Below are positions 22,230 through 63,327 of a stretch of DNA of 63,327 nucleotides, in pieces. The position numbers and the translations under genes are program-made. Source of the DNA: a virus; the IMG/VR virus record IMGVR_UViG_3300025325_000020, positions 1 through 63,327 of that record. The stretch is one strand, 5' to 3'. How positions within the stretch are numbered: position 1 is the first letter of the stretch; each line of letters starts with the position of its first letter. The notes under the pieces are model-generated. The model was not told the DNA's origin and searched no databases. It worked only from the letters and a program-made list of their open reading frames with translations.

Positions 22230-22243
22230 AAGGAACGATTAAC

Positions 22244-24919: not shown

Positions 24920-25001
24920 AAAAACCAGGCCGGATTTCCCCCGGCCCCTGGAAGCCTGCCCCGCAGCGCGACCCTGCGGGGCAGGGGAAAGGCTGAAGAA
25001 T

Positions 25002-30274: not shown

Positions 30275-30502
30275 ATGAAACCCGAATTGACCTATTTTCT
30301 CTACAACGAAATCCCCGGCGCGCACCATAGCTGGACCCTGGCAGTCCTGGCCGCGGGCCGGAGGGATGCCGACAAGTACATGAAGGCTGTAAATAAAGGC
30401 GGGCATTTCGTGTCGGAAATATCGACCCCCGGCGCAAAGGTCGAGGCATCTTGCGGCGCGGTTACCGCGCGGGCCGGGGAGATCCTGGCGAGAAAGCAAT
30501 GA
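30275..30502 (+). CDS. Small hypothetical protein
   Basis: 75 aa, no family recognised. It is coupled by ATGA to the Mom-like gene that follows. Confidence 0.5.
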   Translation: MKPELTYFLYNEIPGAHHSWTLAVLAAGRRDADKYMKAVNKGGHFVSEISTPGAKVEASCGAVTARAGEILARKQ

Positions 30503-34282: not shown

Positions 34283-34666
34283 ATGCGATTCGTATTGATT
34301 GAAAACAATGAAGACTTCCCGAACGATGGCGAAACCTGCTGGTATTGGGACACAGATCGTCCAGTGGTCGGGAAACGTGAGAGAAAAGATGGATCTTGGA
34401 TTGCTGTACAATGCTATTGCAAAAAAGACCCTAACCAATTCAGGAAAATAGATAATTTGCGACTTCTTTTCACCGATCAAACCGAATATTATTGTGTTTG
34501 CCCAAATTGTTATGATGTTTATCGGCGTATGCAATGGTCGGGCAGCACACATGGTGGATCCGGTTGGCGGAGTAGAGCCGAGAATTATTTAGGCTTTCAC
34601 CAGAGAAAAAAGAATTGGTGTGAGTTTTGTGACCCCGTTTTTGGCAATGGTGGTTGGGCCGTTTAG
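34283..34666 (+). CDS. AT-rich zinc-finger protein
   Basis: 127 aa with CVCPNC and CEFC knuckles and many Trp/Tyr residues. The gene is clearly more AT-rich than its flanks, a sign of transfer. No family was recognised. Confidence 0.6.
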   Translation: MRFVLIENNEDFPNDGETCWYWDTDRPVVGKRERKDGSWIAVQCYCKKDPNQFRKIDNLRLLFTDQTEYYCVCPNCYDVYRRMQWSGSTHGGSGWRSRAENYLGFHQRKKNWCEFCDPVFGNGGWAV

Positions 34667-34683
34667 AGCCGCTAAGGAATCTT

Positions 34684-35370
34684 ATGGGTACTATCTTGCT
34701 TGATCCACTCGACAAAACCGGTATTGCCTGGGCGCAAAAGACAGTGACAGAGTATCACTACCGTCACAGCCCGATGGATGTTCGCTGCTCCGTGGAGGGC
34801 TATGCTGTGCTCCTGGAGAATTACCGGGTAGGCCTGCTCTTATTCGGTAGGCCGGAGGCGACCCGCTGTTATCCCTGGTATGGGTCGGTGGAAGAAGCGG
34901 GTTCGGGATTGGTGGAGGTCACCCGCTGGCAAGTGCTCAATCTTGCGCGTGTCTGGCTGTCATCCGCCGTCCAGGTCGGGGGCAGCCTATGCACGCCTGA
35001 CCTGGTGCCAGGCTATTATGACCGCAAGGGCATCTGGCGCTCGACCCTGGCCAGCACCGTGATCGGGACGGCGGCTCAGCGGATCGGCTTCGATTACCTG
35101 GTGCGCCGCCCGCCGGTCTTCCTGGATGAGCCATATCAGATAGAGTGGCTGCTTAGCTATTGCGATCCCGCCTACCACAAAGGCACGATCTACCGGGAGT
35201 CTGGCTTTCAACTTTACAGGACCAACGCCGCCGGACTGATGACCTGGAGGATCCGGCTGCCAGAGCTCACCCAGGAGCAATTGGGGGAGATCAATTATCG
35301 GGCAAAGAAGAGCAAGCGGTCGCAGAGTTGCAGAGCGAAGCGGGCGCAAATTGGTTTACCCCTGGGGTGA
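34684..35370 (+). CDS. Mom-like DNA modification protein (GNAT-fold), copy 2
   Basis: 228 aa from ATG 34684 (AAGGAA). It aligns along its whole length with the protein at 30499: HYRHSPMDVRCSVEGY, LLFGRPEATRC, RWQVLNLARVWL, STLASTVIG, LLSYCDPAYHKGTIYRESGF. The two copies differ enough to suggest old duplication or separate capture, and perhaps different specificity. Confidence 0.65.
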   Translation: MGTILLDPLDKTGIAWAQKTVTEYHYRHSPMDVRCSVEGYAVLLENYRVGLLLFGRPEATRCYPWYGSVEEAGSGLVEVTRWQVLNLARVWLSSAVQVGGSLCTPDLVPGYYDRKGIWRSTLASTVIGTAAQRIGFDYLVRRPPVFLDEPYQIEWLLSYCDPAYHKGTIYRESGFQLYRTNAAGLMTWRIRLPELTQEQLGEINYRAKKSKRSQSCRAKRAQIGLPLG

Positions 35371-36525: not shown

Positions 36526-36880
36526 TAAATACCCCAACGAAACAAAAGCCGCTGCGATGGCAGCCCTTCTAGCCGGGCAGTCAATCAGCCAGGTCGCCAA
36601 GGAATACAAAATACCTAAAGGCACGATATCGTCCTGGAAAAACCGAGGCGCGGGTTTGCAGAACGCGACCCAAAAAAGGGAAATAGGGGATCTAATTACC
36701 GAGTATTTGCGGGAAAATCTGATTACACTTAAAACCCAGGCCGAATTCTTCCGCAACATTAAGTGGCTGAGCAAGCAAAGCGCGGAAAGCGCTGCGGTTC
36801 TGCATGGGGTGATGACCGATAAGGCGATACGCATCATCGAGGCCTCCAACCGGGGAGAACCGCTGAAAGAGGGTGGATGA
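36518..36880 (+). CDS. Putative terminase small subunit
   Basis: 120 aa from ATG 36518. The N-terminal helix-turn-helix is clear (KAAAMAALLAGQSISQVAKEYKIPKGTISSWK). Helices follow, like the oligomerisation part of small terminases. ATGA coupling to the large subunit supports DNA recognition for packaging. Confidence 0.75.
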   Translation: MANKYPNETKAAAMAALLAGQSISQVAKEYKIPKGTISSWKNRGAGLQNATQKREIGDLITEYLRENLITLKTQAEFFRNIKWLSKQSAESAAVLHGVMTDKAIRIIEASNRGEPLKEGG

Positions 36881-38568
36881 TCGATTACCGGATCGATATT
36901 CCGCGGATAAATACTGGGCCGTATGACTTCGCGAGAGAGAAGGCCGGGCCAATCAGATCGGGTCCCCCGCTCACCCTCCCGGACTGGATGGGTATGGCCC
37001 GCCCTTGCCTGGCCCCCGGCCGCGCCTTCGACCTGGCGAGGCACCGCTACCTGGATCCGATCTACGCCGACGACTGCCGCGAGGTTGTATTCATGAAAGC
37101 GGGCCAGGTGGGGATATCGGAATACCTCATCTCCTGGGTCCTGTGGAGCGCGGACGCGCGCGCTGCCACCGGGTTGTACGTGTTTCCCACCGACAGCGCG
37201 GTCTCGGACTTCGCCGCGGCCAGGCTGGGCCCGGCCATCGAGCCGGGGGTATCGGATTACCTGGCCGGGCTGGTGGTGGGCGGCTCGGCGGATGGCAAGC
37301 GCGGGGCGGACATGGTCAAGCTCAAGCGCATCCGCGACCGTTTTATCTATTTCCGTGGGGCGCAGGTCAGCCCGGACGGAAGGGCGCCTCAGCTCCGTTC
37401 GATCGATGCCGACGTTCTAGTCTTGGATGAGTTCGATGAGATGGACCCCCGCGCCGTGGCCCTGGCCGGGGAGAGATTGGGCCATTCGGGGATTGCCGAG
37501 AAACGCACCGCGTCTACCCCCACCTATACCGGGGCGGGCATCCACGCCGCTTACCTGGCGAGCGACATGCGCCAGTGGCACGTGCGCTGCGAGTGCGGGA
37601 ATAGGCAGCCGCTGGAAATCGACGATCTGGTGACAGAGTGGGACGCGCTCAATCGACCCGTAAGCTGGCATGGGGTGGACTCCGGAGAGCCTTATCTCGC
37701 CTGCCGCAAGTGCGGGAAGGGCCTGGATCGGGCCGGGGAGGGCGAGTGGATAGCTGCTTATCCGGATAGGCCCGTGCACGGCTACCACATTTCCAGGCTG
37801 TTCGCCGCCCACCGGCCGCTCTCGGACTTAATCGCCTCGCTGTCCGAGCTGGACGAGAGCAAGCGTCAGCAAGCCTATAACCAGGGCCTGGGCCTGCCCT
37901 ACCGCTCCCCCACCGCCCTGGCCTTGACCGACGAAGTCCTGGACAAGTGCCGCCGGGAGTATGCGCTGAACAAGGTCCCGGTAGGGGAGACCTGCATGGG
38001 CGTAGATGTGGGCAGTGTGCTGCACGTGATCATCCGGGAGCCGGCAGCCGCCGACTTCGAGCTGCGCTTCGCCGGGATGGTCGCCGACTTCGACGCACTG
38101 GCCGAGCTGATGCGCCGCTTTAAAGTGGGGCGCTCTGTGATCGACGCTTTGCCAGAGACCCGCTCCGCCCGCAAATTGCAATCCGGCTGGAAGCGGGGCG
38201 CGGTCTGGCTGGCCTATTACACCACCCAGCCAGCCGGCAGCAAGAAAGAAGACCCGCGCGAGTGGAACGTCAAAGAATTGGCCGTCAACATGGACCGCAC
38301 GCGCACGCTCGACGAGACGCTGGGCGCGTTCCTGAGCGCCTCCACGGGTGACCCTGGCAGCACGCTTCCGGCCAACGCGCGGGCGCTTAGGGATTACTAC
38401 GCCCACCTGAAAGCGCCCGAGCGGGTGCTGAAAACCACCGCCGACGGCAGCCAGGTCCCGGCCTACGTGGAGACCGGGCCGGATCATTTTTGTCACGCGG
38501 AGAATTACTGCCGTGCGGCGCTGGCCTGCCCCTATGGGGCGGGCTGGTCGCGCGGTCCGGCGGGGTGA
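36877..38568 (+). CDS. Terminase large subunit, GpA family
   Basis: 563 aa. The ATPase domain has the GpA-type Walker A region MKAGQVGISEY and Walker B VLVLDEFDEMD. A zinc-finger pair (CECGNRQ...CRKCGK) lies at ~240-285. The nuclease half begins GVDVGSVLHVII and includes a later VIDALPET acidic strand. The GpA type suggests lambda-like packaging with cohesive or defined ends. No cos site was recognised. Confidence 0.9.
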   Translation: MIDYRIDIPRINTGPYDFAREKAGPIRSGPPLTLPDWMGMARPCLAPGRAFDLARHRYLDPIYADDCREVVFMKAGQVGISEYLISWVLWSADARAATGLYVFPTDSAVSDFAAARLGPAIEPGVSDYLAGLVVGGSADGKRGADMVKLKRIRDRFIYFRGAQVSPDGRAPQLRSIDADVLVLDEFDEMDPRAVALAGERLGHSGIAEKRTASTPTYTGAGIHAAYLASDMRQWHVRCECGNRQPLEIDDLVTEWDALNRPVSWHGVDSGEPYLACRKCGKGLDRAGEGEWIAAYPDRPVHGYHISRLFAAHRPLSDLIASLSELDESKRQQAYNQGLGLPYRSPTALALTDEVLDKCRREYALNKVPVGETCMGVDVGSVLHVIIREPAAADFELRFAGMVADFDALAELMRRFKVGRSVIDALPETRSARKLQSGWKRGAVWLAYYTTQPAGSKKEDPREWNVKELAVNMDRTRTLDETLGAFLSASTGDPGSTLPANARALRDYYAHLKAPERVLKTTADGSQVPAYVETGPDHFCHAENYCRAALACPYGAGWSRGPAG

Positions 38569-39723: not shown

Positions 39724-39882
39724 ATGATTCACCCCGTCTCTTTACGGGCTCATATATTTTGCCATTGGCTGAAACTACACAAACCATCAAAAGGAATTTG
39801 GGAATACAACGGCACGCACTCTATATGTTTGCGCTGCGGTTTTGTGATTACCAAATTAGATAACGGACGTTGGGCATTGTGA
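39724..39882 (+). CDS. 52-aa Cys/His protein
   Basis: ATG 39724 directly follows the previous stop. There is a Cys in IFCHWLKLH and CLRCG further on, giving a possible zinc site, and an aromatic-rich C-terminus. No family is known to me. Confidence 0.6.
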   Translation: MIHPVSLRAHIFCHWLKLHKPSKGIWEYNGTHSICLRCGFVITKLDNGRWAL

Positions 39883-39896
39883 GGAGTTCTAACACC

Positions 39897-41561
39897 ATGG
39901 ACGGAAACGAGCAATTGATCGAGCGCGCGGAAGAAAACGTAGAGCGCGTGAAAGAAGCTTCGAAACAGCCCCGCTTTGCAAGGCCGAAGCCGGGCCAGTT
40001 CTACTCCTCGGTCTACGGCTGGGTGCAGGCCGCCGGGCAGGACGAGCCTTCTTACAAGCCCGATTCCCGCCTGCGGGATAAGTGGCTGCGCAGTTTCATC
40101 AAGCGCGAGCCGTATTTCCTGGGAGTGTTCAACAGCGTGGTCGATATCGACAGTAACCGCGGCTGGGAGCTGGCCGGTGGGCGTAACCAGGTGAGGCGCT
40201 TCACCGGCGTGCTGCATAACTGGCTGGTGGCGCCGGGCGTGCGCGGCTGGCGGCCGGGAGTTAAAGCGGCCGCGTCCAGCTTCTACGGTGCCGACATCGC
40301 CACGGTTATCGAGAATGGCCGGGATGGGAAGAACGGTCCGCTCAGGGGCTTCTACCACGTCGATCCGGCCCGCTGCCGCCTGACCGGGAAACAGGACGCC
40401 CCGCTCAAATACAACCCGCCGGCGGGCAAGGTCCAGGACTGGGCCGAGAGCGACTTCATCCGCGTCACGTCCCTGGTCGAGACCGCCGAAGAGATGAACG
40501 GGCTGTGCTATTCCGCCGGCAGCCGGGCGCTGGAACTGGCAAAGCTGATGGTGGCCGTCTACCAGCACGACAGCGAGCAGTTGGGGGCGCGCGCTCCCAA
40601 GGGCATCTTGCTCCTCCACGGCATCTCCGAAGAGCAGTGGGAAGACACCCTGAAAGTGCGCGGCGAGAAGCTCGACAGCCTGGAGCGGGAATACTACGGC
40701 GGCGTGCAGGTGCTGGCAAGCGAGGGTCTGGAGCAGATCGACGCTAAACTAGTCGCCCTCTCGCAGCTCCCGGCCGGTTTCGACATCGAAAAGTTCACCA
40801 ATTTGCTCATGTATGGCTATGCCCTGATCGTGGGCTACGACGCCCGCGAGTTCTGGCCGGTCTCCTCCGGGGCGCTGGGCACAGCCTCCGAGACCGAGAC
40901 CCAGCACCGCAAGGCCTCGGGCAAAGGCGGAACCGATTTCGCCCTGGGCCTCCAGGAGCAGATCCAGCGCCCGGACGTGCTGCCGCCCACCCTCCATTTC
41001 GGCTTCGAGCAGAGGGACGAGGAGTCCGATATCCTGGAAGCGGAGGTGGCGCTGGCCCAGATCCACAACGTGCGCGAGATGTTCGAAGCCGGGCTGCAAG
41101 CCACGGGGACCGGCATCATCGACCGCGAGGAGGCCCGCTCGCTCCTGGCCGAATCTGGCGTCATCCCCCACGAATGGACCGAGATCGAAGAGGATACCAA
41201 GGCCACCGATACCCAGGAAGCCCGGCTGAAGAGCAGACTGGAAAGGCTGATGGAGAATGAGCGCATCCAGCGGGCGGTGGAGCGATTCCCGGACGAGCCT
41301 TTAGTCGCCTACCGCTGGCCGGCCAACCGCACAGTAACCCTGGCAAAGCGCGCCGCCGACGCCCTGCCGCGGGGTTGGGTCATGCCCCGGCTGAAGAACC
41401 GGGCGGAAGGGGAAACCCTTTACGAAGACCCGGACGGCGATTTTACCATCACCGAAGGAGACGTGGACCGCGCCGTGGAGAAGGCCGGGCGGGTGGAGGC
41501 GGAGATTGCAGAGGTACTGGAGGCGTCTCCATTGCCTGCGGAGCAGGAAGGCGAGGCATGA
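39897..41561 (+). CDS. Portal protein
   Basis: 554 aa from ATG 39897 (GAGGAG). Size, position after the terminase and content fit: an N-terminal clip/wing region with FYGADIATVIENG, a long helical part (DKWLRSFIKREPYF...; QLPAGFDIEKFTNLLMYGYALIVG), and an acidic C-terminal tail. It forms the dodecameric DNA channel of the head. ATGA overlap with the next gene. Confidence 0.85.
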   Translation: MDGNEQLIERAEENVERVKEASKQPRFARPKPGQFYSSVYGWVQAAGQDEPSYKPDSRLRDKWLRSFIKREPYFLGVFNSVVDIDSNRGWELAGGRNQVRRFTGVLHNWLVAPGVRGWRPGVKAAASSFYGADIATVIENGRDGKNGPLRGFYHVDPARCRLTGKQDAPLKYNPPAGKVQDWAESDFIRVTSLVETAEEMNGLCYSAGSRALELAKLMVAVYQHDSEQLGARAPKGILLLHGISEEQWEDTLKVRGEKLDSLEREYYGGVQVLASEGLEQIDAKLVALSQLPAGFDIEKFTNLLMYGYALIVGYDAREFWPVSSGALGTASETETQHRKASGKGGTDFALGLQEQIQRPDVLPPTLHFGFEQRDEESDILEAEVALAQIHNVREMFEAGLQATGTGIIDREEARSLLAESGVIPHEWTEIEEDTKATDTQEARLKSRLERLMENERIQRAVERFPDEPLVAYRWPANRTVTLAKRAADALPRGWVMPRLKNRAEGETLYEDPDGDFTITEGDVDRAVEKAGRVEAEIAEVLEASPLPAEQEGEA

Positions 41562-41884
41562 GCCCGGCTATTCCGCCCACCCTGCCCGCCGCCCCGGCCG
41601 TCCGCTGCGAGAAGTGCGGCCATGCCATCCCCCTGGCCAGGCTCTCGCCCACTATGCGCGCCGTAGAGGGCCGGACCGGCTGCTACGACGTGGGCTTCAT
41701 CTGCCCCGCCTGCCGCAACTTTTACCACGCGGCTTACACCAACGACACGCTGATGAGCATGCAGCGGCGCATCGAGAAGATCCGCAAGCGTGAGGGCCGT
41801 GTCAGGCTTCTGCAGAAGTATAAAACCAAGTTCGAGCGGTTTCAGATCGAGATGGATATAGCGCTCAAGCCAGAGTTGACATGA
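41558..41884 (+). CDS. Zinc-ribbon protein in the head module
   Basis: 108 aa from ATG 41558. CEKCGH and CPACRNF form a ribbon, and the C-terminal half is a basic coiled coil (MQRRIEKIRKREGRVR). It is coupled on both sides by ATGA between the portal and head-morphogenesis genes. Confidence 0.6.
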   Translation: MSPAIPPTLPAAPAVRCEKCGHAIPLARLSPTMRAVEGRTGCYDVGFICPACRNFYHAAYTNDTLMSMQRRIEKIRKREGRVRLLQKYKTKFERFQIEMDIALKPELT

Positions 41885-42525
41885 GCTGGTACTGGAACCC
41901 CCGCTCCCACCGCTATACCTGGCAGAACGGCTCCGCCCGCTTCCTGGCCCGCGACCAGGTGCTGGCCTGGGTCGAGCAGCTCATCGACGCCGGCGGCGGC
42001 GCGGCCGACACCCTGGCAAACCTGGTCGCCAATGGCAGGCTCGCCGCCCCGGATTGGCTGGACAGCATGCGCCGCGAGATCAAGGACGCCTGTATCCAGC
42101 AATATCTTCTAGGCATCGGCGGGCGCAGCCAGATGGCGGCGGAGGATTGGGGTTCCATCGGCGGGATGCTCAAAGAGCAGTACGGCTGGCTGAAAGGCTT
42201 CTACCAGGAGGTGCTCGCCGGAGACCTGTCCGAGGCCGCCATCGCCATGCGCGCCCGCATGTACATCAACAGCGCACGCGAGGCCTACGAGCGCGCCCTG
42301 GGCAGGGTAGCCGCCCGAGCTGGCATGGACGAGGAGTCCTGGGCGACCGGCTTCGTCAGGACCGAGCATTGCGAAGACTGCCTGGGCTACGAGACCGAAG
42401 GCTGGCAGGAGATCGGCCATTTCCCCACCCCGGGCGATGGGTCTACCATCTGCCTGACGAGCTGCCATTGCAGCAAACATTATCGTAAAGCATCCAGCGG
42501 AGAGGAATTGTGGGAAACAACATAG
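41881..42525 (+). CDS. Head morphogenesis protein (Mu gpF-like)
   Basis: 214 aa. The C-terminal block CEDCLGYETEGWQEIG...FPTPGDGSTICLTSCHCSKHY is the Cys-rich signature of minor head proteins of this kind. Such proteins sit near the portal and help prohead assembly. The last 16 codons are repeated just downstream (42529-42576). Confidence 0.8.
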   Translation: MSWYWNPRSHRYTWQNGSARFLARDQVLAWVEQLIDAGGGAADTLANLVANGRLAAPDWLDSMRREIKDACIQQYLLGIGGRSQMAAEDWGSIGGMLKEQYGWLKGFYQEVLAGDLSEAAIAMRARMYINSAREAYERALGRVAARAGMDEESWATGFVRTEHCEDCLGYETEGWQEIGHFPTPGDGSTICLTSCHCSKHYRKASSGEELWETT

Positions 42526-42576: not shown

Positions 42577-42823
42577 CGTAGCAGACAACGGCCACGGGGC
42601 AAGGGCAAAAGTGGATCCCCGCGGAGAATCGGTCAAGGTCGAGGCCACCGGATTGGTGAGGATCGACGGCATTGCCTGTTTCAAGCGCGTCGAGCGGGCC
42701 GGCAAAATCTACCTGCAATTCTGCGACAACGACCGGCTGCGCGCTTCCTGCCGCGGCACGCGCCTGGTGGAGGTGCCCCTGGAGTCGTTGTTCCAGATTT
42801 TAGAGATGGAGAAAAGGCAATGA
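42563..42823 (+). CDS. Small hypothetical protein
   Basis: 86 aa from a GTG inside the second copy of the 48-bp repeat. The C-terminal ~50 residues are beta-rich (GLVRIDGIACFKRVERAGKI...). It overlaps the epimerase gene by 4 nt. Its function is unknown. Confidence 0.55.
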   Translation: MGNNIVADNGHGARAKVDPRGESVKVEATGLVRIDGIACFKRVERAGKIYLQFCDNDRLRASCRGTRLVEVPLESLFQILEMEKRQ

Positions 42824-43743
42824 AAATCATGATCACCGGATCGCGGGGTTTCGTGGGCGCGGCAACCAAGGATTATCTGGACCATATTGTCCAGAAAGGG
42901 AATTCCCACCCTTGCCAGGCGCTCGACTATGACCTGATGGACGGCCTGGACATTCGCGACGCAAACCAGCTCAAGGAATTCGCTAAATGCCATCGCCCTG
43001 ACCGCATCCTCCACTTAGCCGCCATCGCCCGCTTTGCCGACGCCGACAAAGACCCGCTTTTAGCCTGGCAGACCAATGTATTGGGCACGCAGAACGTGGT
43101 GGACGTGGCCGCGCGCTACCACATTCCCCTGGTATACGCATCGACTGGCTCCGCCATCATGCCGCTGGACGAGTTCGAGCCACCGTACAAGGAATTTCTC
43201 CCCGCGCGCGGCAACTCGGTGTACGGCTGCTCGAAAGCGTTGGGGGAGTGCATCGTGCGGCAGCATACCCCCCATATCATCCTGCGCTATGCCCACCTGT
43301 ACGGGGCGGAGAAACGCCATCACGGTCTTATAGGCGGGTTCCTGGATCGGATCGGGAGGGGACTTCAGCCAAGGCTGTTTGGGGGCAGGCAAAGCAACGA
43401 TTTTGTTTACATAAAAGATGTTGCACGAATAAATTATCTGGCGCTGGCTTCGAGCTGGGACCGCTGGAACCAAACCTTCAATGTCGGCTCCGGACAGGAG
43501 CTTTCGACGGAGCAGGCCGGGGAAATTATATGCCGGGTCGCCGGCTACACCGGAGCTATCGAGCGCTTGCCCGCACGCACGGTCGATCCGGGCCGGTTCA
43601 TTTTCGATACCGGCAAGGCCGCTGAATGGCTGGGTTTTGAAGCGGAGTTCGATTTCGAGAGCGGCCTGGCGGATATGATGGGGAAGGCGGAGAAAGCCGG
43701 GCAGGGAATGACAGTGAACGTGGAAGCGTTCATGAGAGGATGA
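42820..43743 (+). CDS. NAD-dependent sugar epimerase/dehydratase (extended SDR)
   Basis: 307 aa. Rossmann motif TGSRGFVG, then ILHLAAIAR, the active-site Ser/Thr region YASTGSA and catalytic Y-x3-K in VYGCSKALGE, then FNVGSG. It interconverts or dehydrates nucleotide sugars. It lies inside the head genes, coupled by ATGA to the previous one, and belongs with the methyl/sulfotransferase and glycosyltransferase genes at 47.7-50.9 kb. Confidence 0.88.
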   Translation: MKIMITGSRGFVGAATKDYLDHIVQKGNSHPCQALDYDLMDGLDIRDANQLKEFAKCHRPDRILHLAAIARFADADKDPLLAWQTNVLGTQNVVDVAARYHIPLVYASTGSAIMPLDEFEPPYKEFLPARGNSVYGCSKALGECIVRQHTPHIILRYAHLYGAEKRHHGLIGGFLDRIGRGLQPRLFGGRQSNDFVYIKDVARINYLALASSWDRWNQTFNVGSGQELSTEQAGEIICRVAGYTGAIERLPARTVDPGRFIFDTGKAAEWLGFEAEFDFESGLADMMGKAEKAGQGMTVNVEAFMRG

Positions 43744-44413: not shown

Positions 44414-44435
44414 ACTTTCGGCTCAAGGAGGACGT

Positions 44436-46199
44436 ATGAATTTCTTCCAGGCACTCGAACAGCGCGTGCGAGCGATCGTGGTGGATACACTCAAAAAGCG
44501 CGCGGTCAAGGACGTGGATGAGTGGGACGGCAGCGCCGCCAATTACGATGATACCGCCGCCTATTGCTCCGCCTGCCTGATCGATGTCAACCCGGCAGGG
44601 GAAGACAAGAAGCAGTCCCTTTGTATGCTGCCCGTGCGCGGCCCCGGCGACGAAGCGGACACCTACGTGCGCCAGGCTGTGCACGCCGCGGCCGGCGGGC
44701 ACGGCATCAGCGCGGTCGAAAAGCCGGAGGGGGTAGAACAGGAGGCCTGGGACGCGGCCAAGAAATCCGCTGCCAAGAAGTTGGTCGCCGCCTACAAGGA
44801 AATGGACGAAGACGCGCCCGAGGCCGTCATGGACATGGCGGATATGTCCGCCGACGAAGAGCGCTCGGCTGCGCAGCTCCGCGCTATCGGCTCCTGGGAC
44901 CTGCGCGACCAGGTGCAGGTGCAGGCCAACGAGAAGTTCGGCATGGACGCCTGGGCCTGGGTTTCGGACATCTACCACGACAACGGCGGGGAAGTCTTCG
45001 CCGTGATCGCCTACGAAGGCAAGCTCTACCGGGCGCCGGTCACCATCGAAAACGACGCCGTGACGGTTGGGGATACCAGCGAAGTCGTGGTGGAATTCAG
45101 GCCATCCGGCGCGGCCGGGGAAGAGGAAGAAGGCGAGGCAGCGCGTGCCCGCACCCGTTACACCGTCCAGCGCCAGGCCGATGGGAAAATGCGCTGGTTT
45201 GCTACTTCGTGCAGCGCGGTGCTCAACCGGGTGGGGGAGATAGACAGCCGGGATCTCTTCGACAGCTTCATCGCCAAGATCGAGGAAACGGGCGAATACC
45301 CCTACCGCTGTTTCTACCATTTGAAGGAGCAGTTCCGCACCGGCCAGTGCGATTTCGTAGCGCGGGACGGCAACTTGCTCATCACTTCGGGCGTGTACGA
45401 TGACTCAGATCTTGCCCGCGCCGAGATCGCCGCCCGCATGGCCAGCCCCGAAACCTGGGGAGATTCCATCAGCTATTGGGCCACCGAGCCGGAACTGGTC
45501 GAGGTGGCCGGCGGCATCCGCATCCCGGTCTACCGGTCCGGCATCCTGGAAGAGATTTCCACCGCCCCGGAGAGCGACGTTGCCGCCCTGTACACCGGGG
45601 GCACCCTCAAGAAGGAGGAAAGACGCATGTTGACAGGAAAATCACTCGAAGCGTTCGTGGCGCTGTGGGGCGGCGACGAAGACAAGGCCAAGGGCTGGCT
45701 GGAAAGCAACGTGGACGCCTCCAACCGCGCCATCGAAAGCGAAGGCCAGATCGCCCGCACGGCCCCGGCAGAGACCTTAGCTGCCCCGCCGGCCGAGTCG
45801 CCCGCCGCTCCCGCTGCCCCTGCGCAGCCAGGAACTGTGGAGATCGACGAAGCGGCCACGTCGGCCATCGCCCGCGCGATTGCGAGCGACACGGCGTTCC
45901 AGGAAACGCTCTCGGCCTTGGTCGCCCGCCAGCTCGAGCCCATCGTTACCCGCATCGACGGCACGACCCGCTCCATCCAGGAGATGAGCGGGCGCCATAC
46001 CAAGGCGGTCAAGGGGCTGGAAGATCGCCTGGGGGCGCTCGAGCTCGACGAGGACGAGAAGAAGCGCGCCTGGCAGAGCGATCTGCCGGCCGCGTCCCGC
46101 TTGCAAGTCACCTACCGCCCGCGGGAGAAGCCCGCGGGTGAAGCTGAGCCAACCTATGCCGACCGGGCCTCCGAGACCCTGGCGGCGATGGGGTCATAA
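44436..46199 (+). CDS. Prohead maturation protease fused to scaffold
   Basis: 587 aa from ATG 44436 (AAGGAGG). The N-terminal ~130 residues (WDGSAANYDDTAAYCSACLID...) are of a type common in phage head proteins. The middle part, with WGDSISYWATEPELVEV...GILEEISTAPES, resembles the Ser protease of prohead proteases. The C-terminal ~170 residues form an Ala/Pro-rich linker and coiled coil, as in scaffolds. Protease and scaffold in one chain just upstream of the capsid gene is usual. Confidence 0.75.
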   Translation: MNFFQALEQRVRAIVVDTLKKRAVKDVDEWDGSAANYDDTAAYCSACLIDVNPAGEDKKQSLCMLPVRGPGDEADTYVRQAVHAAAGGHGISAVEKPEGVEQEAWDAAKKSAAKKLVAAYKEMDEDAPEAVMDMADMSADEERSAAQLRAIGSWDLRDQVQVQANEKFGMDAWAWVSDIYHDNGGEVFAVIAYEGKLYRAPVTIENDAVTVGDTSEVVVEFRPSGAAGEEEEGEAARARTRYTVQRQADGKMRWFATSCSAVLNRVGEIDSRDLFDSFIAKIEETGEYPYRCFYHLKEQFRTGQCDFVARDGNLLITSGVYDDSDLARAEIAARMASPETWGDSISYWATEPELVEVAGGIRIPVYRSGILEEISTAPESDVAALYTGGTLKKEERRMLTGKSLEAFVALWGGDEDKAKGWLESNVDASNRAIESEGQIARTAPAETLAAPPAESPAAPAAPAQPGTVEIDEAATSAIARAIASDTAFQETLSALVARQLEPIVTRIDGTTRSIQEMSGRHTKAVKGLEDRLGALELDEDEKKRAWQSDLPAASRLQVTYRPREKPAGEAEPTYADRASETLAAMGS

Positions 46200-46224: not shown

Positions 46225-47604
46225 ATGAAAACAAATCTCGTGCAAAGGACCCGCACGGCCCCACCGCCAGTCGGGAGAGCTGCTTCGATCGGCGGGCGAC
46301 CCGTCCGGCGCGACCGGGGCGATCTGACGGTGAGCGCCTTAGCCACCATCTACGGCTGCTGCGGCTTGTTCGACATGTGCTCGGACGCCGACCTCATGTC
46401 GCTGACTTTCGAAGGCGCCTCGCCTTTCCTGGACTGGATCGGCTGGGAGCGCACCGACGTGTGCGTGATCAAGAAAAACTTCATCACCTTCGTGCGCGCC
46501 GAAGGCAGCCAGGGGGCCGAGACCGCCGGCTGGCTGGCCGACCCGTGCGCCGACCCGCACGGGGTCGAGTGGGGCGAGTGCGATTTCACCTTGACCGACT
46601 TCGCCCGCCTGCGCCGCTCGGGTCCGACCCGCGACATCACCAAGACCGGCCTGCGCTACTGCGACATCCAGCCGCGGTACAGGCTCGACGGGACGCGCAT
46701 CGACGACGACCGCGAGTACGACATGGTGCTGGCGTTGGAAGTCCTCATGCAGGACTTGAAGGACATGGCCGTCTCCGGCAACGCGGCCACCCCCGGCCAG
46801 TTCGACGGCCTCGAAAGGCTCATCAAGACCGGCTACGTCAACAGCCACGGCCGGCGCTGCACGGCCATGGATTCGGTCGTGATTGACTGGAACAACAACG
46901 GCATGGACGGCGGGGCCGGTATCACCTGGAACGGCCTGCCGGTGGCCGCGACTTATTCCTTCGTCGAAGTGCTGCGCGCGGCCTATAAGCGCATCCGCCA
47001 TCGCATCCGCATGGCACCCTCCCTGGCCGCGCAGAGGCTCAACGTGGGCGATATCGTGCTGGTGCTGCCCGAGGACTTCGTGGACTGCGTGCTGGACGCC
47101 TACACGTGCTGGAGCGTGTGCGACGGCACTTCCACCAACCTGGTGGCGCTCAACTCGCTCGAAGGCCGCCGCTTCCGCGACAGCCTGCTGGGCGGCATGT
47201 TCGGGGGCGGGCGCATCTTCTTGGACAGTTTCGAGATCCCCGTCCTGCCCTACGACTGGGGCCTGATCAAGGGGCCGAACCATTTTGACGCTTACCTCCT
47301 GACGGGCCAGGTGGGCAATATCAAGGTTTTGCAGGGCCAGTACAACGACATGGCCCCGGTATCGGCCAAGCGCGCCGACCGCTACAACACGGACGGCGGG
47401 CGTATTTTGACCTGGCGCGAGGACGATCACACCTGCGAGCAGCAGATCGTCGAGATGCAGCCGCGCATCCTGGCCTGGGCGCCCTGGGCGGAAGTCCGCT
47501 TCCAGGATGTCAACTGCGCCGTGCCGGGCGGCGTGATCGGGCCGGATCCCTGGGAGACGAGCTTCTTCCCTGAGGGCTCCTTCTCCGTGGCGGCCTGCCC
47601 GTAA
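46225..47604 (+). CDS. Major capsid protein
   Basis: 459 aa from ATG 46225, with a strong GGAGGAAGAA site. Position after the protease-scaffold, size and the absence of enzyme motifs support it. Many Cys and Asp residues are present (IYGCCGLFDMC; DPCADPHGVEWGECDF), unusual for an HK97-fold capsid and perhaps giving metal or disulfide stabilisation. A 14-bp hairpin follows the gene. Confidence 0.8.
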   Translation: MKTNLVQRTRTAPPPVGRAASIGGRPVRRDRGDLTVSALATIYGCCGLFDMCSDADLMSLTFEGASPFLDWIGWERTDVCVIKKNFITFVRAEGSQGAETAGWLADPCADPHGVEWGECDFTLTDFARLRRSGPTRDITKTGLRYCDIQPRYRLDGTRIDDDREYDMVLALEVLMQDLKDMAVSGNAATPGQFDGLERLIKTGYVNSHGRRCTAMDSVVIDWNNNGMDGGAGITWNGLPVAATYSFVEVLRAAYKRIRHRIRMAPSLAAQRLNVGDIVLVLPEDFVDCVLDAYTCWSVCDGTSTNLVALNSLEGRRFRDSLLGGMFGGGRIFLDSFEIPVLPYDWGLIKGPNHFDAYLLTGQVGNIKVLQGQYNDMAPVSAKRADRYNTDGGRILTWREDDHTCEQQIVEMQPRILAWAPWAEVRFQDVNCAVPGGVIGPDPWETSFFPEGSFSVAACP

Positions 47605-47631: not shown

Positions 47632-47665
47632 CACCCTGGTCCTGGTGTTTGCCAGGACCAGGGTG
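47632..47665 (+). other. Strong hairpin after the major capsid gene
   Basis: A perfect 14-bp stem (47632-47645 with 47652-47665) and TGTTTG loop without a T tract. It may stabilise the capsid mRNA or reduce read-through into the sugar genes. Confidence 0.7.
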
Positions 47666-47675: not shown

Positions 47676-49154
47676 ATGCCGGTGAAATCAAACGGCTACA
47701 AGCGTTCGCCAGAGGAATGGGCGCAGGTTTGCCTGTCGGTGGACAGCGGCTATGTCCCCGGCGGGAAGCGCCAGGCAGCCGGTCTGTACGAGAACGGCTG
47801 TAAGTACGTCCGCGAGCGCATCCGCCCCCTGGGCTTGTGGAAAGCCGGCGACGTAGTGCTCGATATCGGCTGCGCCAACGGGCGGGTTGCGATGGGCCTG
47901 CTCGAGGAAGGCGTCTTCTATCACGGCCTCGAGATCGTGGCCGGCTGTGTGAAGTTCTGCGAGAGCGCCTTCGCCCCCTGGAGAAACTTCCACTTCCACT
48001 ACCTGGACGCAGCCAATCCCCGCTACAACCCGGGTGGGCAGATCCAACCCGAGCGCGCCGTCTTTCCCTTGCCGGACGCCTCGATAGACGTGGCGATTGC
48101 GTCCAGCCTGTTTACCCACCTGGAGACGCCCGAAGTCGCGGCGCGCTACCTCGGCGAGACATGGCGTGTGCTCAAGCCGGGCGGCAGGCTGTTCGCTACC
48201 TGGCTGCGCAGCCCGCCGAACGAAGTCGCGCAATCCGCGGCGCGCACGGTCTACCGCGAGGCCGATATCCTGAATCTCTTAGGCGGGCGCTGGACGATCC
48301 TGGACACTTCCCGCGGCTTGACCGATGCCCCGCACGACCAGTGGACGTTGGCGCTTTCTAAGTCCGATCCGAGAGTATCCATGCACTACATCCTTGCCAA
48401 AGACGTACAGAACGTGGTGGTCTCCGCCCAGCGCAGCGGCACGACCTGGCTGCAAGCCCTCCTGGGCGCTTACTTGTGCACCGCCTACGGGCTGCCGGAC
48501 GGGAACCTCATGAAGGCGTTGGACCTGACCCGCTCGGCCGGGCTGCCCGTGACGGCTTTTACGCATGACCCCCAGCGGGATCTGCCCGCTTGCCCGCCGG
48601 TCGAGACTGAATACGCCGGCAAGCGCATTGCCCTGCTCGTGCGCGATCCGCTCGACACGCTCCTGTCGCAGTTCATGCTGGCCCGCCACCGCCGCCGCAC
48701 GGTAAGCGCCGAGACATCGGCGCGGGATTACATCCTGGAGAAGCTGCCTGCCCTGTTGGCCTTCTACGAGGCCTGGCTGGGCGCGGATAAATCCGCTTTC
48801 GGCGGCTTCGAGGTCTACACCTACGAAGCCTTCCACCAGGACGCATCCGGCGAGCTGGAGCGGCTGGCGCAGTTTTTCGGGTACGCCTCGAACCGCGAAG
48901 CGCGCTGGGCGGCGGTGGAGTTCGCCGATTTCGAGCACATGCAAGCCATGGAGAAGAGCGGGCGTTTCCACGAGCACTACGCGGTCAACGACTTCCTGCC
49001 GGTGGAGGACGCTCGCGCCATGCGCACGCGGCGCGGCCGCATGGGCCGCGGCCGGCGGGCGCTTGCGGAGGCGGACATTGAGCGGGCCGAGAAATCGATC
49101 GCCGCCTCTCCCCTTGTAGGCGCATTGTACGCCAGGGAAGCCGCCGGTGGATAA
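47676..49154 (+). CDS. Methyltransferase-sulfotransferase fusion
   Basis: 492 aa from ATG 47676. Residues ~60-225 are a class I SAM methyltransferase (VLDIGCANGRVAMGLLEEG; later VLKPGGRLFATW). Residues ~250-450 have sulfotransferase features: SAQRSGTTWLQALLG (5'-phosphosulfate loop), VRDPLDTLLSQFM (3'-phosphate site) and YTYEAFHQDASGELERLAQFFG. It would methylate and sulfate a glycan or other acceptor using SAM and PAPS. It sits between the capsid gene and the glycosyltransferase. Confidence 0.82.
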   Translation: MPVKSNGYKRSPEEWAQVCLSVDSGYVPGGKRQAAGLYENGCKYVRERIRPLGLWKAGDVVLDIGCANGRVAMGLLEEGVFYHGLEIVAGCVKFCESAFAPWRNFHFHYLDAANPRYNPGGQIQPERAVFPLPDASIDVAIASSLFTHLETPEVAARYLGETWRVLKPGGRLFATWLRSPPNEVAQSAARTVYREADILNLLGGRWTILDTSRGLTDAPHDQWTLALSKSDPRVSMHYILAKDVQNVVVSAQRSGTTWLQALLGAYLCTAYGLPDGNLMKALDLTRSAGLPVTAFTHDPQRDLPACPPVETEYAGKRIALLVRDPLDTLLSQFMLARHRRRTVSAETSARDYILEKLPALLAFYEAWLGADKSAFGGFEVYTYEAFHQDASGELERLAQFFGYASNREARWAAVEFADFEHMQAMEKSGRFHEHYAVNDFLPVEDARAMRTRRGRMGRGRRALAEADIERAEKSIAASPLVGALYAREAAGG

Positions 49155-49158
49155 CGGG

Positions 49159-50931
49159 ATGGAATCCTTGACGGTTGTCGTCCCCTTCTGGAACGGCCAC
49201 GCCACCATCGAACGCCTGCTGGAGTCGCTGCCTGACGCTCTGCCCGTCGTGGTGGTGGACGACCAGTCCGATTCGCCTTACCGGTCGAAGCGGGAGAACG
49301 TGACCGTCATCCGCCCCGCGGCGAAAGGCTATTTCGCCGGGGCGGTCAACGCCGGCCTGTCGGCCTGCGGCGGGGATGCGCTGGTCGTCAATCAGGATGC
49401 CTGGCTCGAAGGCTCCGCCTGGCTTGACCTGCTAGCCGAGGAGCATGAGAAGCACGCTCTTATTGGGCACGGCGTGATGGCGCACCCGGCCTGGCCGAAA
49501 GGCTACGTGCAGGGCACGTTCATGTTCCTGCGCCGTGACGCGATCTCGAAAGTAGGCGGCCTGAATGCCCGCGATTACCCCTTGTGGGGCTGCACCGCCG
49601 AATGGCAGGTTCGCGCCGCCCGTGCCGGTTTCCGCGCCCTGCCTTTGCCCGAGATCCCCGGCTTCCACCACCAGGAGCGCAAGCCGGGCGCTTTCGGCGA
49701 TTCCATCACCGAGGCGCTGCGCAGGGAGCCGGGCGAGAAAGGCCGCTTTATCCGCACCCCGCCCATGATCAGCATTATCGTGCCCTGCTTCAACTATGGC
49801 AAATATTTGCCGGATCTCGTGGCTTCCCTGGCGGGCGGGCCGTCCAGCCTGGGGAATATGCTTGGCCAAACCTTCGCCGCCTGGGAGCTGGTCATTGTAG
49901 ACGACGCCTCCACCGACAAATCGGCGGAGATGGCCGCGGCGCTGGCCGATCCCTGGAAGGGCATCCGCCTGGTGAGAAGGGCGAAGAACGGCGGCACGGC
50001 GGCGGCCAACAACGACGGCGTACGCGCGTCCTTCGGACGCTATATCACCGTCCTGGGCGCAGACGACATGATGGAGCCATACCGGCTTGAAGCCCTCTAC
50101 CAGGCGGCGGAGGCCCACCCGCACTCCGTCGTCTACGACGACGTGGCCCTCTTCAAGGCCGGCGAGCGCATGCAGACCTGGGCCATGGCGGAGTACGACT
50201 TCGAGAAGCTGCTGCAGAAGAACCATATGCACGCCGGCATCTTGTTTCCCAAGAAAGCCTGGGAAGAGACCGGCGGCTACCCGGAGAGTATGCGCGAGGG
50301 CCGCGAGGACTGGGCCTTCAACGTGGCCCTGGGAGTCTGGGGCTACTGCGGGGTGAGGGTGCCGAAAGCGGGCTACCTCTACCGCCGCGAGAAGCACAAC
50401 CGCACGCTCAGGAATTCGGGCCCGGGCTGGAGGGAGCGATTTACAGGCCAGATGAAAGCCTTGTTCCCAGGGCTGTACAAAGGAGAGAGACCGATGGCAT
50501 GCTGTGGAGGCGGGCGGGCGCCCGCCAGGAAAATGAACGGCAAGGGGGCGGCCAGCCTGCCCGGCGCGGCCGGCATGCTGCGCATCGAGTACGCGGGCTT
50601 GAACGATGGCGACATGCCCTGGTACGGGCCGGTGACCGGCACGCGCTACGTGTTCGGCGGGGTGCACAAGACAGGCTACATCGACCCGCGCGACGCGCGC
50701 ACCGGCAATTCCAAGAAGCCGGGCTTGCTCGATATCTGGGAGCACGGGCGGGCGCAGTTCCGAGAGGCCCCGCTGCCGGTCCAGGCGGTGGCAATGCCGG
50801 CGGCAGCCCCGGCGATTGCGCCGGAGGCTGAGCTGGAAGCGCCAGAAGCCCCGGTAGAAGTGGTTGTCGAGACAGAACTGACCCCGCTCCCCAGAAGCAC
50901 CCCACGGCGGAGGAAGAAAAGTGGCGATTAG
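49159..50931 (+). CDS. Double GT2 glycosyltransferase fused to a small virion-type protein
   Basis: 590 aa from ATG 49159 (a GTG at 49147 is possible). The first GT-A domain covers ~1-200 (VVVPFWNGHATIERLL, VVVDDQS, YPLWGCTAEWQVR). The second covers ~205-435 (ISIIVPCFNYGKYLPDLV, VIVDDASTDKSAE, VLGADDMM). From residue ~446 comes a different domain, CCGGG..., YGPVTGTRYVFGG, GYIDPRDARTG, as in small proteins that follow capsid genes. An ATG with AAGGAGAG at 50494 could start this last domain alone. Confidence 0.85.
   Translation: MESLTVVVPFWNGHATIERLLESLPDALPVVVVDDQSDSPYRSKRENVTVIRPAAKGYFAGAVNAGLSACGGDALVVNQDAWLEGSAWLDLLAEEHEKHALIGHGVMAHPAWPKGYVQGTFMFLRRDAISKVGGLNARDYPLWGCTAEWQVRAARAGFRALPLPEIPGFHHQERKPGAFGDSITEALRREPGEKGRFIRTPPMISIIVPCFNYGKYLPDLVASLAGGPSSLGNMLGQTFAAWELVIVDDASTDKSAEMAAALADPWKGIRLVRRAKNGGTAAANNDGVRASFGRYITVLGADDMMEPYRLEALYQAAEAHPHSVVYDDVALFKAGERMQTWAMAEYDFEKLLQKNHMHAGILFPKKAWEETGGYPESMREGREDWAFNVALGVWGYCGVRVPKAGYLYRREKHNRTLRNSGPGWRERFTGQMKALFPGLYKGERPMACCGGGRAPARKMNGKGAASLPGAAGMLRIEYAGLNDGDMPWYGPVTGTRYVFGGVHKTGYIDPRDARTGNSKKPGLLDIWEHGRAQFREAPLPVQAVAMPAAAPAIAPEAELEAPEAPVEVVVETELTPLPRSTPRRRKKSGD
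50494..50931 (+). CDS. Internal in-frame start: small virion-type protein
   Basis: ATG 50494 lies in the same frame as the glycosyltransferase and is preceded by AAAGGAGAG at ideal spacing. The product would be 145 aa: a CCGGG knuckle, the TGTRYVFGG domain, then an acidic Ala/Pro/Glu tail and a basic end (RRRKKSG). It is likely to be made both alone and as the end of the enzyme. Confidence 0.55.
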   Translation: MACCGGGRAPARKMNGKGAASLPGAAGMLRIEYAGLNDGDMPWYGPVTGTRYVFGGVHKTGYIDPRDARTGNSKKPGLLDIWEHGRAQFREAPLPVQAVAMPAAAPAIAPEAELEAPEAPVEVVVETELTPLPRSTPRRRKKSGD

Positions 50932-51244
50932 GCTGATCCTGGCTGCTTTCGCCGTCTACCGCCTGGCCGGGATGGTCGCCCTCGACGTGGGCCCGTTCGG
51001 CGTCTTCGAACGGCTGCTGGCCTGGGCCGGAAGGTTGGCGGCAGGCAAGCCCAAATACAGCGCGGCCTGGAGCCTGGCCGAGGCCCTCAACTGCCCTTAC
51101 TGCCTGGGCGTCTGGCTGGCAGCGCCGGTCTGGCTGCTGGTCAGGTCGAAGGGCAAGTGGAGCGATTTTATCCTGGGCGTCTTCGGTGTCGCCGGGATGC
51201 AAGCGTTTTTGGAAGATTTGGAGGGATCGCATGGCCCCAAGTAA
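50921..51244 (+). CDS. DUF1360-like membrane protein
   Basis: 107 aa from a GTG at 50921 (GGAGGAAG upstream). Hydrophobic segments, then LDVGPFGVFERL and CPYCLGVW, the Cys pair typical of DUF1360. Such proteins turn up among phage structural genes. Their role is unknown. Confidence 0.75.
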   Translation: MAIRLILAAFAVYRLAGMVALDVGPFGVFERLLAWAGRLAAGKPKYSAAWSLAEALNCPYCLGVWLAAPVWLLVRSKGKWSDFILGVFGVAGMQAFLEDLEGSHGPK

Positions 51245-60735: not shown

Positions 60736-60952
60736 CATCTTCCCCGATCTCGACGTGGCGCACTTCTGGCGCATCGAGAATCCCCTGGATTTTTGGGGGC
60801 TGCCGGTTGGAGCCAGGACGCTCATGAAAGCCTACGCCTGGGCGGTGGCCGACATGCGCGCGGTGGAGGCCTACGAGCGGGAGCAGGAAGCCGAGAAACG
60901 GAAGGCGGAGGCCCAGGCGCACGCGCCCAGGGGCCGGAAACGAAGCAGATGA
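60644..60952 (+). CDS. Tail assembly chaperone, downstream frame (probably by frameshift)
   Basis: The +1 frame is open from 60644 to a stop at 60950-60952 that overlaps the tape measure ATG. Its only start-like codon is a GTG at 60755 without a ribosome binding site. The frame encodes DLDVAHFWRIENPLDFWGLP..., then a charged coiled coil and a basic tail. A +1 (or -2) shift somewhere in 60644-60735, for instance at TTT-C near 60652, would yield a longer GT-like protein. Confidence 0.55.
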   Translation, partial: RPPFGLRYKKRALAECPKLASDWSISSDLPNIFPDLDVAHFWRIENPLDFWGLPVGARTLMKAYAWAVADMRAVEAYEREQEAEKRKAEAQAHAPRGRKRSR

Positions 60953-63327
60953 CCACACCCAACGAAGTCGGACTCGATGCAGTCTTCAAGACCGAGAAGT
61001 TCCAGGCCGGCTTGGCGCGATATATCGCCGGGCAGGCCCAGGCGCGCGCCTCCACCCAGGCTACCGCCGGCCACATCTCCAGCGTCGGCGGAGGCATGGC
61101 GTCCGGCTTCGGCGCGGCCATCTCGGCCCTATCCGGTCCGCTGGGGTTTATAAGCAACCTGATCGGGTCCACGCTCGGGGCGGCCATCGGCACCCTGACG
61201 GGCACGCTGATCCCAGGTTTGCTTTCGGGCTTATCCGATATCGCCTCAGGGGCAGTATCCGCCGTCTCCGAGCTGCAACTGCTTACTATCACGCTAGAGT
61301 CTTTGTCCGCGCGCGAAATTTACGTGTCGGGCGGAGCAGCTTCGATGACAGACGCCCTGGCCCAAGCCGGTCCGATGGCGGATGCTCTTTTGGGATCACT
61401 GCGCGAGCTTTCGATTATTTCTCCATTCGAATACAAAGATGTAGTCAATGTGTTTCGGTTAAACATGGCATTTGGGCAATCATCTGAGACGGCCCTTGAA
61501 CTGACAGATGCCATTTTGAACATGGCCGCAGGAATGGGCTTAACCGGACCATTCCTGGAGCGCATTGCTTATAACTTCTCACAAATGAATCTGGTTGGCA
61601 AAATCACTGCAATGGATATGCGCCAGCTAGGCCAGGCCGGGATAGACCTTGGCCGAATTTTGAGAGAAGAATTGGGCGTGTCTATGGAGGAAGCCAACGC
61701 AAAGCTCCAATCCGGGTCTATTACTTTCAAGGAAATTTCCCAGGCTTTTGTAGATTATGCAGAAAAGAACGTAGGGAATGCGGCCCAGCGCGCTTCTCGT
61801 TCCCTCTCCGGTCTGGCGTCGTCTTTCCGTGATCTGCTCTTTTTTGCCTCCGCCGACTTATTTGGTTCGGCCTTCGGCACGATTGGGGATGCGCTCGGCA
61901 CTGTCTTTGATAAGGCCAACGAGTTCGCAAGCTCGGGCGTGCTGCAAATGGTGGGGGCAGGCCTCGATGTGGTCGCGCAGCAAGCCGTATCCGCAGGCGG
62001 GTCGATCCTGACCTGGGCCGGCTCGCTCTTCGATGGGCTTAACGTAACCTTCGAGGACATTGCCGGGGCGGCTTTCGACTGGGGCGCGAATATCGTGCTG
62101 ATGCTGGCGCAAGGCATCATTGCCGGAGCCGCCGCCGTGCTCGACGCCTTACTTTTTATCGGCAACATCATCGCCGCCTGGCTGGGGCCCGGCTCGCCTC
62201 CTAAGATCGCCCCCGATCTGCCCGAGTGGGGGCGCGCCGCCATGCAGGAGTTCTTAGGCGGCTTTGCATTAGCCACCGGCGAATCGCTCCAGAAAGCGGC
62301 CGGCCCGCTCGAAGCCTGGGGCGATACCGCCCTCAACGCGCTCTTCAAAGGTTTTTCCAGCGCCGACTTCGACATCTTCGACTCTCTTCTCGGCCCGCTC
62401 GAGCAAGCCCTGGGTGTGATGCAGAAGCTCGGTGACGTGACCGAGGCCCAGGTGCGGGAGACCCTGGGCAGCATCTCGGAAGTTATGGCGCAGGCCCTGG
62501 CCGAGTTCGAGAAGACCGGGCAGGTGGGCCCGGAAGTATTCGACGCCATCCGCGCGGCGGGCGGCGAATTAGGGGACGAATTAGCCGACCTCCTGCAGAA
62601 GCAGCTTGATTTAGCGGCCGGAGTGAAGAAAGTCGAAGCCGCCGAGAAAGCCCTGGACGAGGCCCGCCAGCGCCAGGAACAGGCGACCCAGGATGTCTCA
62701 GACCTGACTTCCGAGTATAACCGCATGCTGCGCGCCGGAGCCAGCGACGAAGCCCTGCGCCTGAAGCTGGAGGAGATCAACGCGGCCGAGAAAGCGCGCG
62801 GCGAGGCCGCCGGCCAGGCCGACGAAGCCGAGCGGGCCCTGGAAGCGGAGAAAGAGCGCCAGAAAGCCCTCCAGGAGTCTGTCAAGCTCCAGGAAGAGCT
62901 TCTTCGGCAGCTCATCGAGCTGGCCCGCCAGCAGATCCCGCCCAAGGAAGGCGAGGAGACCGGCGGCGGTGGTGGGGGAGGCGGGGGCATCGAGCCGCCC
63001 GAGTTCGCCCCGCCCGAGATCCCCGGCGTCGGCCAGGGATTGGGCGAGATCGAGAAGAAAGCCGCCGCGTTCAAGGAGCGCATCGAGAAGCTCTTCGAAG
63101 ACCTGTGGTCCAATATCGCCCAATCCATCGAAGACTCGGAGATCGCCAAGAAATGGGAGGAGCTGACCAAGGAGGCCGAGAGCATCTGGAACGAAGTCTG
63201 GCCGGTGCTGGAAACCAAGTGGGCCGGGTTCTGGAGCCTGCTGGATATCATCTCCGGCATCGTCCAACCCAAGGTTTCCCAGAACATCCAGGACATCGGC
63301 ATCGACCTGCAGGACATCGCGTCGAAG
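60949..63327 (+). CDS. Tape measure protein, N-terminal part (continues at base 1)
   Basis: 793 codons, open to the last base, in phase with 1-1128. ATG 60949 overlaps the previous stop. A hydrophobic region covers ~50-110 (AISALSGPLGFISNLIG...), with a GPGSPPKIAP segment, then coiled coils (~560-650), a Gly run (~665-675) and amphipathic helices with Trp. This is the usual layout of tape measure proteins. Confidence 0.92.
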   Translation, partial: MTTPNEVGLDAVFKTEKFQAGLARYIAGQAQARASTQATAGHISSVGGGMASGFGAAISALSGPLGFISNLIGSTLGAAIGTLTGTLIPGLLSGLSDIASGAVSAVSELQLLTITLESLSAREIYVSGGAASMTDALAQAGPMADALLGSLRELSIISPFEYKDVVNVFRLNMAFGQSSETALELTDAILNMAAGMGLTGPFLERIAYNFSQMNLVGKITAMDMRQLGQAGIDLGRILREELGVSMEEANAKLQSGSITFKEISQAFVDYAEKNVGNAAQRASRSLSGLASSFRDLLFFASADLFGSAFGTIGDALGTVFDKANEFASSGVLQMVGAGLDVVAQQAVSAGGSILTWAGSLFDGLNVTFEDIAGAAFDWGANIVLMLAQGIIAGAAAVLDALLFIGNIIAAWLGPGSPPKIAPDLPEWGRAAMQEFLGGFALATGESLQKAAGPLEAWGDTALNALFKGFSSADFDIFDSLLGPLEQALGVMQKLGDVTEAQVRETLGSISEVMAQALAEFEKTGQVGPEVFDAIRAAGGELGDELADLLQKQLDLAAGVKKVEAAEKALDEARQRQEQATQDVSDLTSEYNRMLRAGASDEALRLKLEEINAAEKARGEAAGQADEAERALEAEKERQKALQESVKLQEELLRQLIELARQQIPPKEGEETGGGGGGGGGIEPPEFAPPEIPGVGQGLGEIEKKAAAFKERIEKLFEDLWSNIAQSIEDSEIAKKWEELTKEAESIWNEVWPVLETKWAGFWSLLDIISGIVQPKVSQNIQDIGIDLQDIASK

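Follow-up and report, generated by a model that had tools for sequence, protein, structure and literature searches.

A phage methyltransferase-sulfotransferase fusion encoded between the capsid gene and a glycosyltransferase gene: a possible tailoring enzyme of virion glycans

The stretch of DNA analyzed here (the window) is an IMG/VR virus contig of 63,327 bases with matches to a large terminase, an integrase and a tape-measure protein. In its head region an open reading frame (ORF) combining a methyltransferase with a sulfotransferase lies between the major capsid protein gene and a glycosyltransferase gene. The features relevant to this locus are:

36877..38568, + strand, terminase large subunit (phrog_675, 2.2e-93)
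39870..41561, + strand, putative portal protein, assigned by position and conservation; no family match
41881..42525, + strand, putative minor head protein of the Mu gpF kind, assigned by sequence and position; matches phrog_24776 (function not annotated)
42820..43743, + strand, NAD-dependent nucleotide-sugar epimerase/dehydratase (PF01370, 3.4e-35; phrog_540), relative L014 has an epimerase from this blast cluster close to its capsid gene
44433..46199, + strand, putative prohead protease/scaffold, assigned by position and conservation; no family match
46225..47604, + strand, major capsid protein of predicted HK97 fold (AlphaFold model, structure match)
47632..47665, + strand, perfect 14-bp inverted repeat with a loop of 6 and no T-tract, in the gap between capsid and fusion gene
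47676..49154, + strand, methyltransferase-sulfotransferase fusion protein, 492 aa
47676..48371, + strand, predicted N-terminal class I SAM methyltransferase domain (approximately residues 1-232, Pfam core 61-173)
48396..49145, + strand, predicted C-terminal PAPS sulfotransferase domain (approximately residues 241-490)
49147..50931, + strand, glycosyltransferase with two GT2-like domains and a C-terminal module, 594 aa (Glycos_transf_2, 3.8e-39)
50488..50769, + strand, C-terminal module of the glycosyltransferase (CCGG...GPVTG.RY.FG...VD.RD)
50921..51244, + strand, small DUF1360 membrane-type protein, conserved 3' of the glycosyltransferase

The fusion ORF begins with ATG at 47676, with GGGAG five bases 5' of the start, and is intact up to its stop at 49154. 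The initial annotation had described two domains with their cofactor motifs in one phage protein and had suggested a search for methyltransferase 11/25 and sulfotransferase families. Both domains were found by Pfam. Residues 61-173 match Methyltransf_11 (1.5e-10), Methyltransf_25 (1.1e-9) and Methyltransf_12 (2.9e-9), and residues 247-473 match Sulfotransfer_1 (1.4e-8; 34.9 bits against a curated cut-off of 22) and Sulfotransfer_3 (1.2e-8), all above the curated cut-offs. The motif residues are present as well: VLDIGCANGR from residue 61, RSGTTWL from 253 and VRDPLD from 322. A second contig, IMGVR_UViG_3300025322_000134 (L002), carries the same gene and differs from the window in 3 nucleotides out of 12,489 bases. 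The near-identical gene in a second assembly rules out a single-assembly chimera or a frameshift as the origin of the fusion; both contigs may represent one virus population. All three differences are inside the fusion gene; two were scored as non-synonymous, and the two proteins differ in one residue (T/A).

The refuting result named for the first reading was a C-terminal half without the sulfotransferase P-loop fold; in the structure predictions the fold is present. The sulfotransferase half was modeled by AlphaFold with an alignment of 51 relatives and reaches a pLDDT of approximately 93-98 (about 95) across most of residues 241-480. In both the Foldseek and the VIA-align search the best 50 rows are all sulfotransferase-fold proteins, and the top VIA-align match is mouse SULT3A1 (Z 18.8, 3.2 Å over 234 residues). 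The expected motifs can be assigned to the P-loop (253-259), His297, the 3'-phosphate site (R323/S331) and RRGxxG (RRGRMG, 452-457). Six residues (G255, T257, W258, R323, D327, S331) are invariant in an alignment of 52 sulfotransferase sequences, and H297, R452, G454 and G457 are conserved in at least 90% of them. By profile, motifs and predicted fold the C-terminal half is a PAPS-type sulfotransferase, and transfer of sulfate from PAPS is the predicted reaction.

The model of the methyltransferase half, made without an alignment, has a pLDDT below 50 across residues 53-149, so the fold of this half rests on the sequence families. Motif I (LDIGCANGR, 62-70) is present, followed by an acidic residue at the end of strand 2 (E86 in HGLEIV). 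Residues 21-228 are 33% identical to methyltransferases of Sinorhizobium that adjoin glycosyltransferases. Profiles, motif I and this similarity to glycan-locus enzymes point to a class I SAM methyltransferase, and we regard the two enzyme classes, SAM methyltransferase and PAPS sulfotransferase, as almost certain.

The gene upstream of the fusion has no Pfam or PHROG match and no sequence match in any library searched; it was therefore identified by structure prediction. The model (pTM 0.74) has HK97-fold capsids or encapsulins as its best 50 PDB matches, with a VIA Z of 19.3 to the capsid of cyanophage A-1(L). On this predicted structure the gene was confirmed as that of an HK97-fold major capsid protein. 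The fusion gene starts 71 nt 3' of the capsid stop. Perfect inverted repeats of 10-14 bp (loops 4-8, no T-tract) follow the capsid gene directly in 11 of 20 viruses checked (the window, L010, L014, L025, L026, L029, L031, L032, L033, L039 and L047), and their sequences are unrelated. Such a hairpin could perhaps act in mRNA processing or attenuation and keep enzyme expression low next to a highly expressed capsid gene. A scan for promoters and terminators around the fusion locus returned weak matches only. Downstream, the glycosyltransferase starts either with GTG at 49147, overlapping the fusion gene by 8 nt, or with ATG at 49159, 4 nt past the fusion stop. Hydropathy predicts no membrane segment in the fusion or in the glycosyltransferase, which fits cytoplasmic work on a protein-bound sugar.

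Further genes of the window are mentioned for completeness. Two Mom-like DNA-modification proteins (PF25680) are encoded at 30451-31200, which also matches phrog_1384, and at 34654-35370; one scores above the cut-off and one just below. A D12 adenine methyltransferase (28962-29834) is located near them. The tape-measure gene (60793-63327) is truncated by the right end of the contig, and a long open frame (3-1157) begins at the left end. The contig may thus represent an almost complete genome that is circularly permuted, with the break within the tail genes.

To place the locus in its lineage, relatives were collected by searching IMG/VR with the capsid protein, which gave 38 contigs, or approximately 34 distinct ones once obvious duplicates were removed. 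While these 38 metagenomic contigs share the capsid protein, a search of 50,697 phage records detected no relative of it. The lineage is apparently one of tailed phages without a cultured member. In a search for the host, 400 genomes from the phylum of L054 (titled Anaerolineae) gave one weak partial match to the capsid protein, which was uninformative about the host. The glycosyltransferase alignment was matched in 35 of the 38 relatives, usually in the next gene past the capsid gene; another gene is placed between both in L040, L041, L042, L044 and L049. In L029 and L038 the C-terminal module occurs alone, as a small protein encoded directly 3' of the capsid gene, an arrangement that would fit a module bound to the virion or forming part of it. 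We infer that the module is the part associated with the capsid and that it gained or lost glycosyltransferase domains. It has no PHROG match, no solved relative and nothing significant among phages, and calling it virion-binding is a guess from gene position.

Sulfotransferases recur in this neighborhood. Twelve of the 38 records, corresponding to 10 of the approximately 34 distinct viruses with the twin of the window included, contain one above the Pfam cut-offs. These proteins form at least five groups that are mutually undetectable by sequence, and a sixth group was found in a terminase relative (L019) shortly 3' of a different capsid gene. None of the lineage sulfotransferases is encoded more than 9.6 kb from the capsid gene, and all share its strand. 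In the seven records longer than 50 kb, the window itself being one of them, the mean distance to the capsid gene is 5.3 kb compared to 16.7 kb expected by random placement (P approximately 0.0008). The same islands contain methyltransferases (FkbM, Methyltransf_24 and Methyltransf_12), extra GT2 and group 1 glycosyltransferases, an epimerase (L014) and a UDP-glucose/GDP-mannose dehydrogenase (L049). This clustering is the strongest argument that the fusion belongs to an exchangeable set of glycan-tailoring enzymes linked to the phage head. L029 speaks against a virion target: no glycosyltransferase adjoins its capsid gene, and the sulfotransferase that it carries together with the stand-alone module is 7 kb away. 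Most relatives are without a detectable sulfotransferase, suggesting that sulfation is optional; the contigs are fragmentary, and a missing gene is thus weak evidence.

The lineage also qualifies the view, expressed at the outset, that a PAPS-using enzyme is rare in phages. For isolates it holds, as relatives of three lineage sulfotransferases gave 0, 0 and 1 matches in the 50,697 phage records, but within this lineage such enzymes are frequent. The single record matched, by the L033-type sulfotransferase, is Pseudomonas phage Y4 (OQ572406.1), in which a GT2 and a sulfotransferase gene (22038-22763 and 24917-25507) are approximately 2 kb apart.

The fusion itself has no close homologue, and this version of it was found in the window and the near-identical contig only. 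Taken alone, this would agree with chance cargo devoid of a virion or glycan role, or with an inactive remnant. The intact frame and the cofactor residues kept in both domains speak against it, and the presence of five or more unrelated sulfotransferase groups in one neighborhood argues for selection; we consider this explanation very improbable. No match to the fusion was found in the 50,697 records of phage isolates, where a search at E up to 10 returned two insignificant matches only. Among bacterial and archaeal sulfotransferase relatives (80 loci, 82 ORFs scanned) none is fused to this methyltransferase. A second fusion of 486 aa (Sulfotransfer_1 2.4e-22, Methyltransf_31 1e-10) is encoded in IMGVR_UViG_3300017917_001172 (L148:9359-10816). 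It has the identical domain order, but the methyltransferase halves do not align, and on this sequence evidence it was built independently. L148 comes from an unrelated phage that encodes a RecA/UvsX-like protein and, nearby, has KdsA/KdsB-like (KDO) and other sugar-nucleotide genes; the stretch examined contains no relative of the capsid protein or the glycosyltransferase of the window. The two independent fusions and the separate sulfotransferase and methyltransferase neighbors in sister phages support a coupled methylation and sulfation of a common acceptor. The early suggestion of two modifications on one acceptor thereby gains indirect support. Its more specific part, a Nod-factor-like or capsule sugar as target, received no specific support; the genes point to the phage head module with its capsid gene and capsid-linked glycosyltransferase and not to a host capsule pathway.

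Which molecule is modified has to be weighed against the lifestyle of the phage. A tyrosine integrase (18718-19638) adjoins an intact tRNA-Thr(CGT) gene (19706-19779), the likely attachment site. The phage is therefore probably temperate, and a role in lysogenic conversion is possible: during lysogeny or infection the fusion could methylate and sulfate a host LPS, capsule or teichoic-type glycan and thus block superinfection or alter the surface. Modification of the host surface is the main rival to a virion target. The GT2 domain matches GtrB-like O-antigen conversion PHROGs, the nearest annotated methyltransferase and sulfotransferase relatives are found in or near Sinorhizobium polysaccharide loci, and bacterial relatives of the sulfotransferase often occur in glycan loci, with glycosyltransferases, other sulfotransferases and methyltransferases as frequent neighbors. 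The fusion gene, however, is part of the late head operon and not of a lysogeny or conversion module. In contrast to the membrane-anchored GtrB of GtrABC systems, the glycosyltransferase has no hydropathy segment of at least 1.6, and among the neighboring genes and families searched neither a GtrA-type flippase nor an O-antigen polymerase was noticed. Conversion genes would also leave the lineage-wide tie between glycosyltransferase and capsid and the stand-alone module unexplained. We therefore regard a host-surface function as rather unlikely.

A further candidate role is auxiliary metabolism, in which sulfation and methylation of a small metabolite or signaling compound of the host (Nod-factor-like, lipid or peptide) would aid infection. 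The closest solved folds are cytosolic SULTs, and phage sulfotransferases have been catalogued as auxiliary metabolic genes (PMC8290583). Against this stands the neighborhood of glycan enzymes and capsid gene, which is consistent over many independent acquisitions. No genes for the synthesis of Nod-type acyl or N-acetylglucosamine chains were seen in the window, and such an auxiliary metabolic role appears improbable.

The authors therefore favor a glycan as the acceptor of the fusion, which we consider quite probable, and the virion of the phage itself as its target, to which we give a little better than an even chance. Sugars on its own capsid are the most likely acceptor because the gene is located between the capsid gene and that of the capsid-linked glycosyltransferase, where other sulfotransferases recur in relatives. 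One must keep in mind that late operons of phages also gather unrelated cargo, and that a neighborhood is not a proof. As a whole, we slightly favor a soluble enzyme with two activities, O-methylation and O-sulfation, that acts on a glycan of the virion, most likely on the major capsid protein. In such a pathway the epimerase would help to produce a nucleotide sugar, and the two-domain GT2 enzyme would attach at least one sugar to a protein of the virion, with the major capsid protein, the product of the gene directly upstream, as the likeliest substrate. The N-terminal half of the fusion could then transfer the methyl group of SAM to a hydroxyl of the glycan and the C-terminal half the sulfate of host-made PAPS to a hydroxyl of the same glycan, capping the capsid sugar with O-methyl and O-sulfate after the glycosyltransferase step. 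The outcome might be a capsid surface that is charged and masked. Such a surface could withstand lectins, glycosidases or antibodies, or alter adsorption and diffusion.

Extended to the lineage, the proposal is that capsid glycans of these uncultured tailed phages are sulfated and methylated by phage enzymes, by means of a glycosyltransferase docked to the capsid and of tailoring enzymes that can be exchanged and are fused in the window; we see the chances for this as evenly balanced. We know of no sulfated phage virion. No description of one, or of a methyltransferase-sulfotransferase fusion, was found in the literature searched, a body of texts with subscription papers mostly outside it. If true, the proposal would give phage sulfotransferases a general function and make these the first sulfated virions of phages known to us. 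It would add a new chemical class of virion surface that bears on the escape of phages from binding, their persistence and their sticking, and it would supply naturally fused glycan-tailoring enzymes. The repeated, independent capture of sulfotransferases near the capsid gene and the capsid-linked glycosyltransferase turns virion-glycan sulfation into a testable role.

The sulfotransferase domain shares its predicted fold with the cytosolic and bacterial PAPS sulfotransferases (PF00685 Sulfotransfer_1; SULT family; Teg12), with Z 18.8 to SULT3A1 and 17.9 to Teg12. P-loop, 3'-phosphate motif, catalytic His and RRGxxG occur in both. Unlike the solved SULT-type structures, to which its identity is approximately 12-20%, the domain is phage-borne and fused to a SAM methyltransferase. 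The methyltransferase domain resembles glycan-locus class I SAM methyltransferases (PF08241/PF13649) such as WQP25573.1 of Sinorhizobium pSymB, with 33-35% identity over the whole domain and with motif I and a YNP.G segment in common. The gene of WQP25573.1 is placed between glycosyltransferases; the enzyme stands alone in bacteria, whereas it is fused in the phage.

Sulfotransferase domains were also reported for OM43 phages, Synechococcus phage S-SRM01 and coral and glacier phages; the passages concerned describe neither a fusion nor a capsid context, and a passage in PMC10580990 states the role of phage sulfotransferases as unclear. The closest parallel in virion glycosylation is offered by mycobacteriophages, whose capsids bear glycans ascribed to phage glycosyltransferases according to a passage in PMC11256854 (citing Freeman 2023). 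For Che8, Rita and Maravista the same passages consider phage glycosyltransferases to act on the major capsid protein, as proposed here, and they mention no sulfotransferase, in contrast to the fusion in the window. The glycosyltransferase genes of Maravista are described near the 3' end of the genome, whereas that of the window adjoins the capsid gene and has an extra C-terminal module. A linkage of the glycosyltransferase to the capsid gene, the mark of a mycobacteriophage-like virion glycosylation cassette, is found in the window as well.
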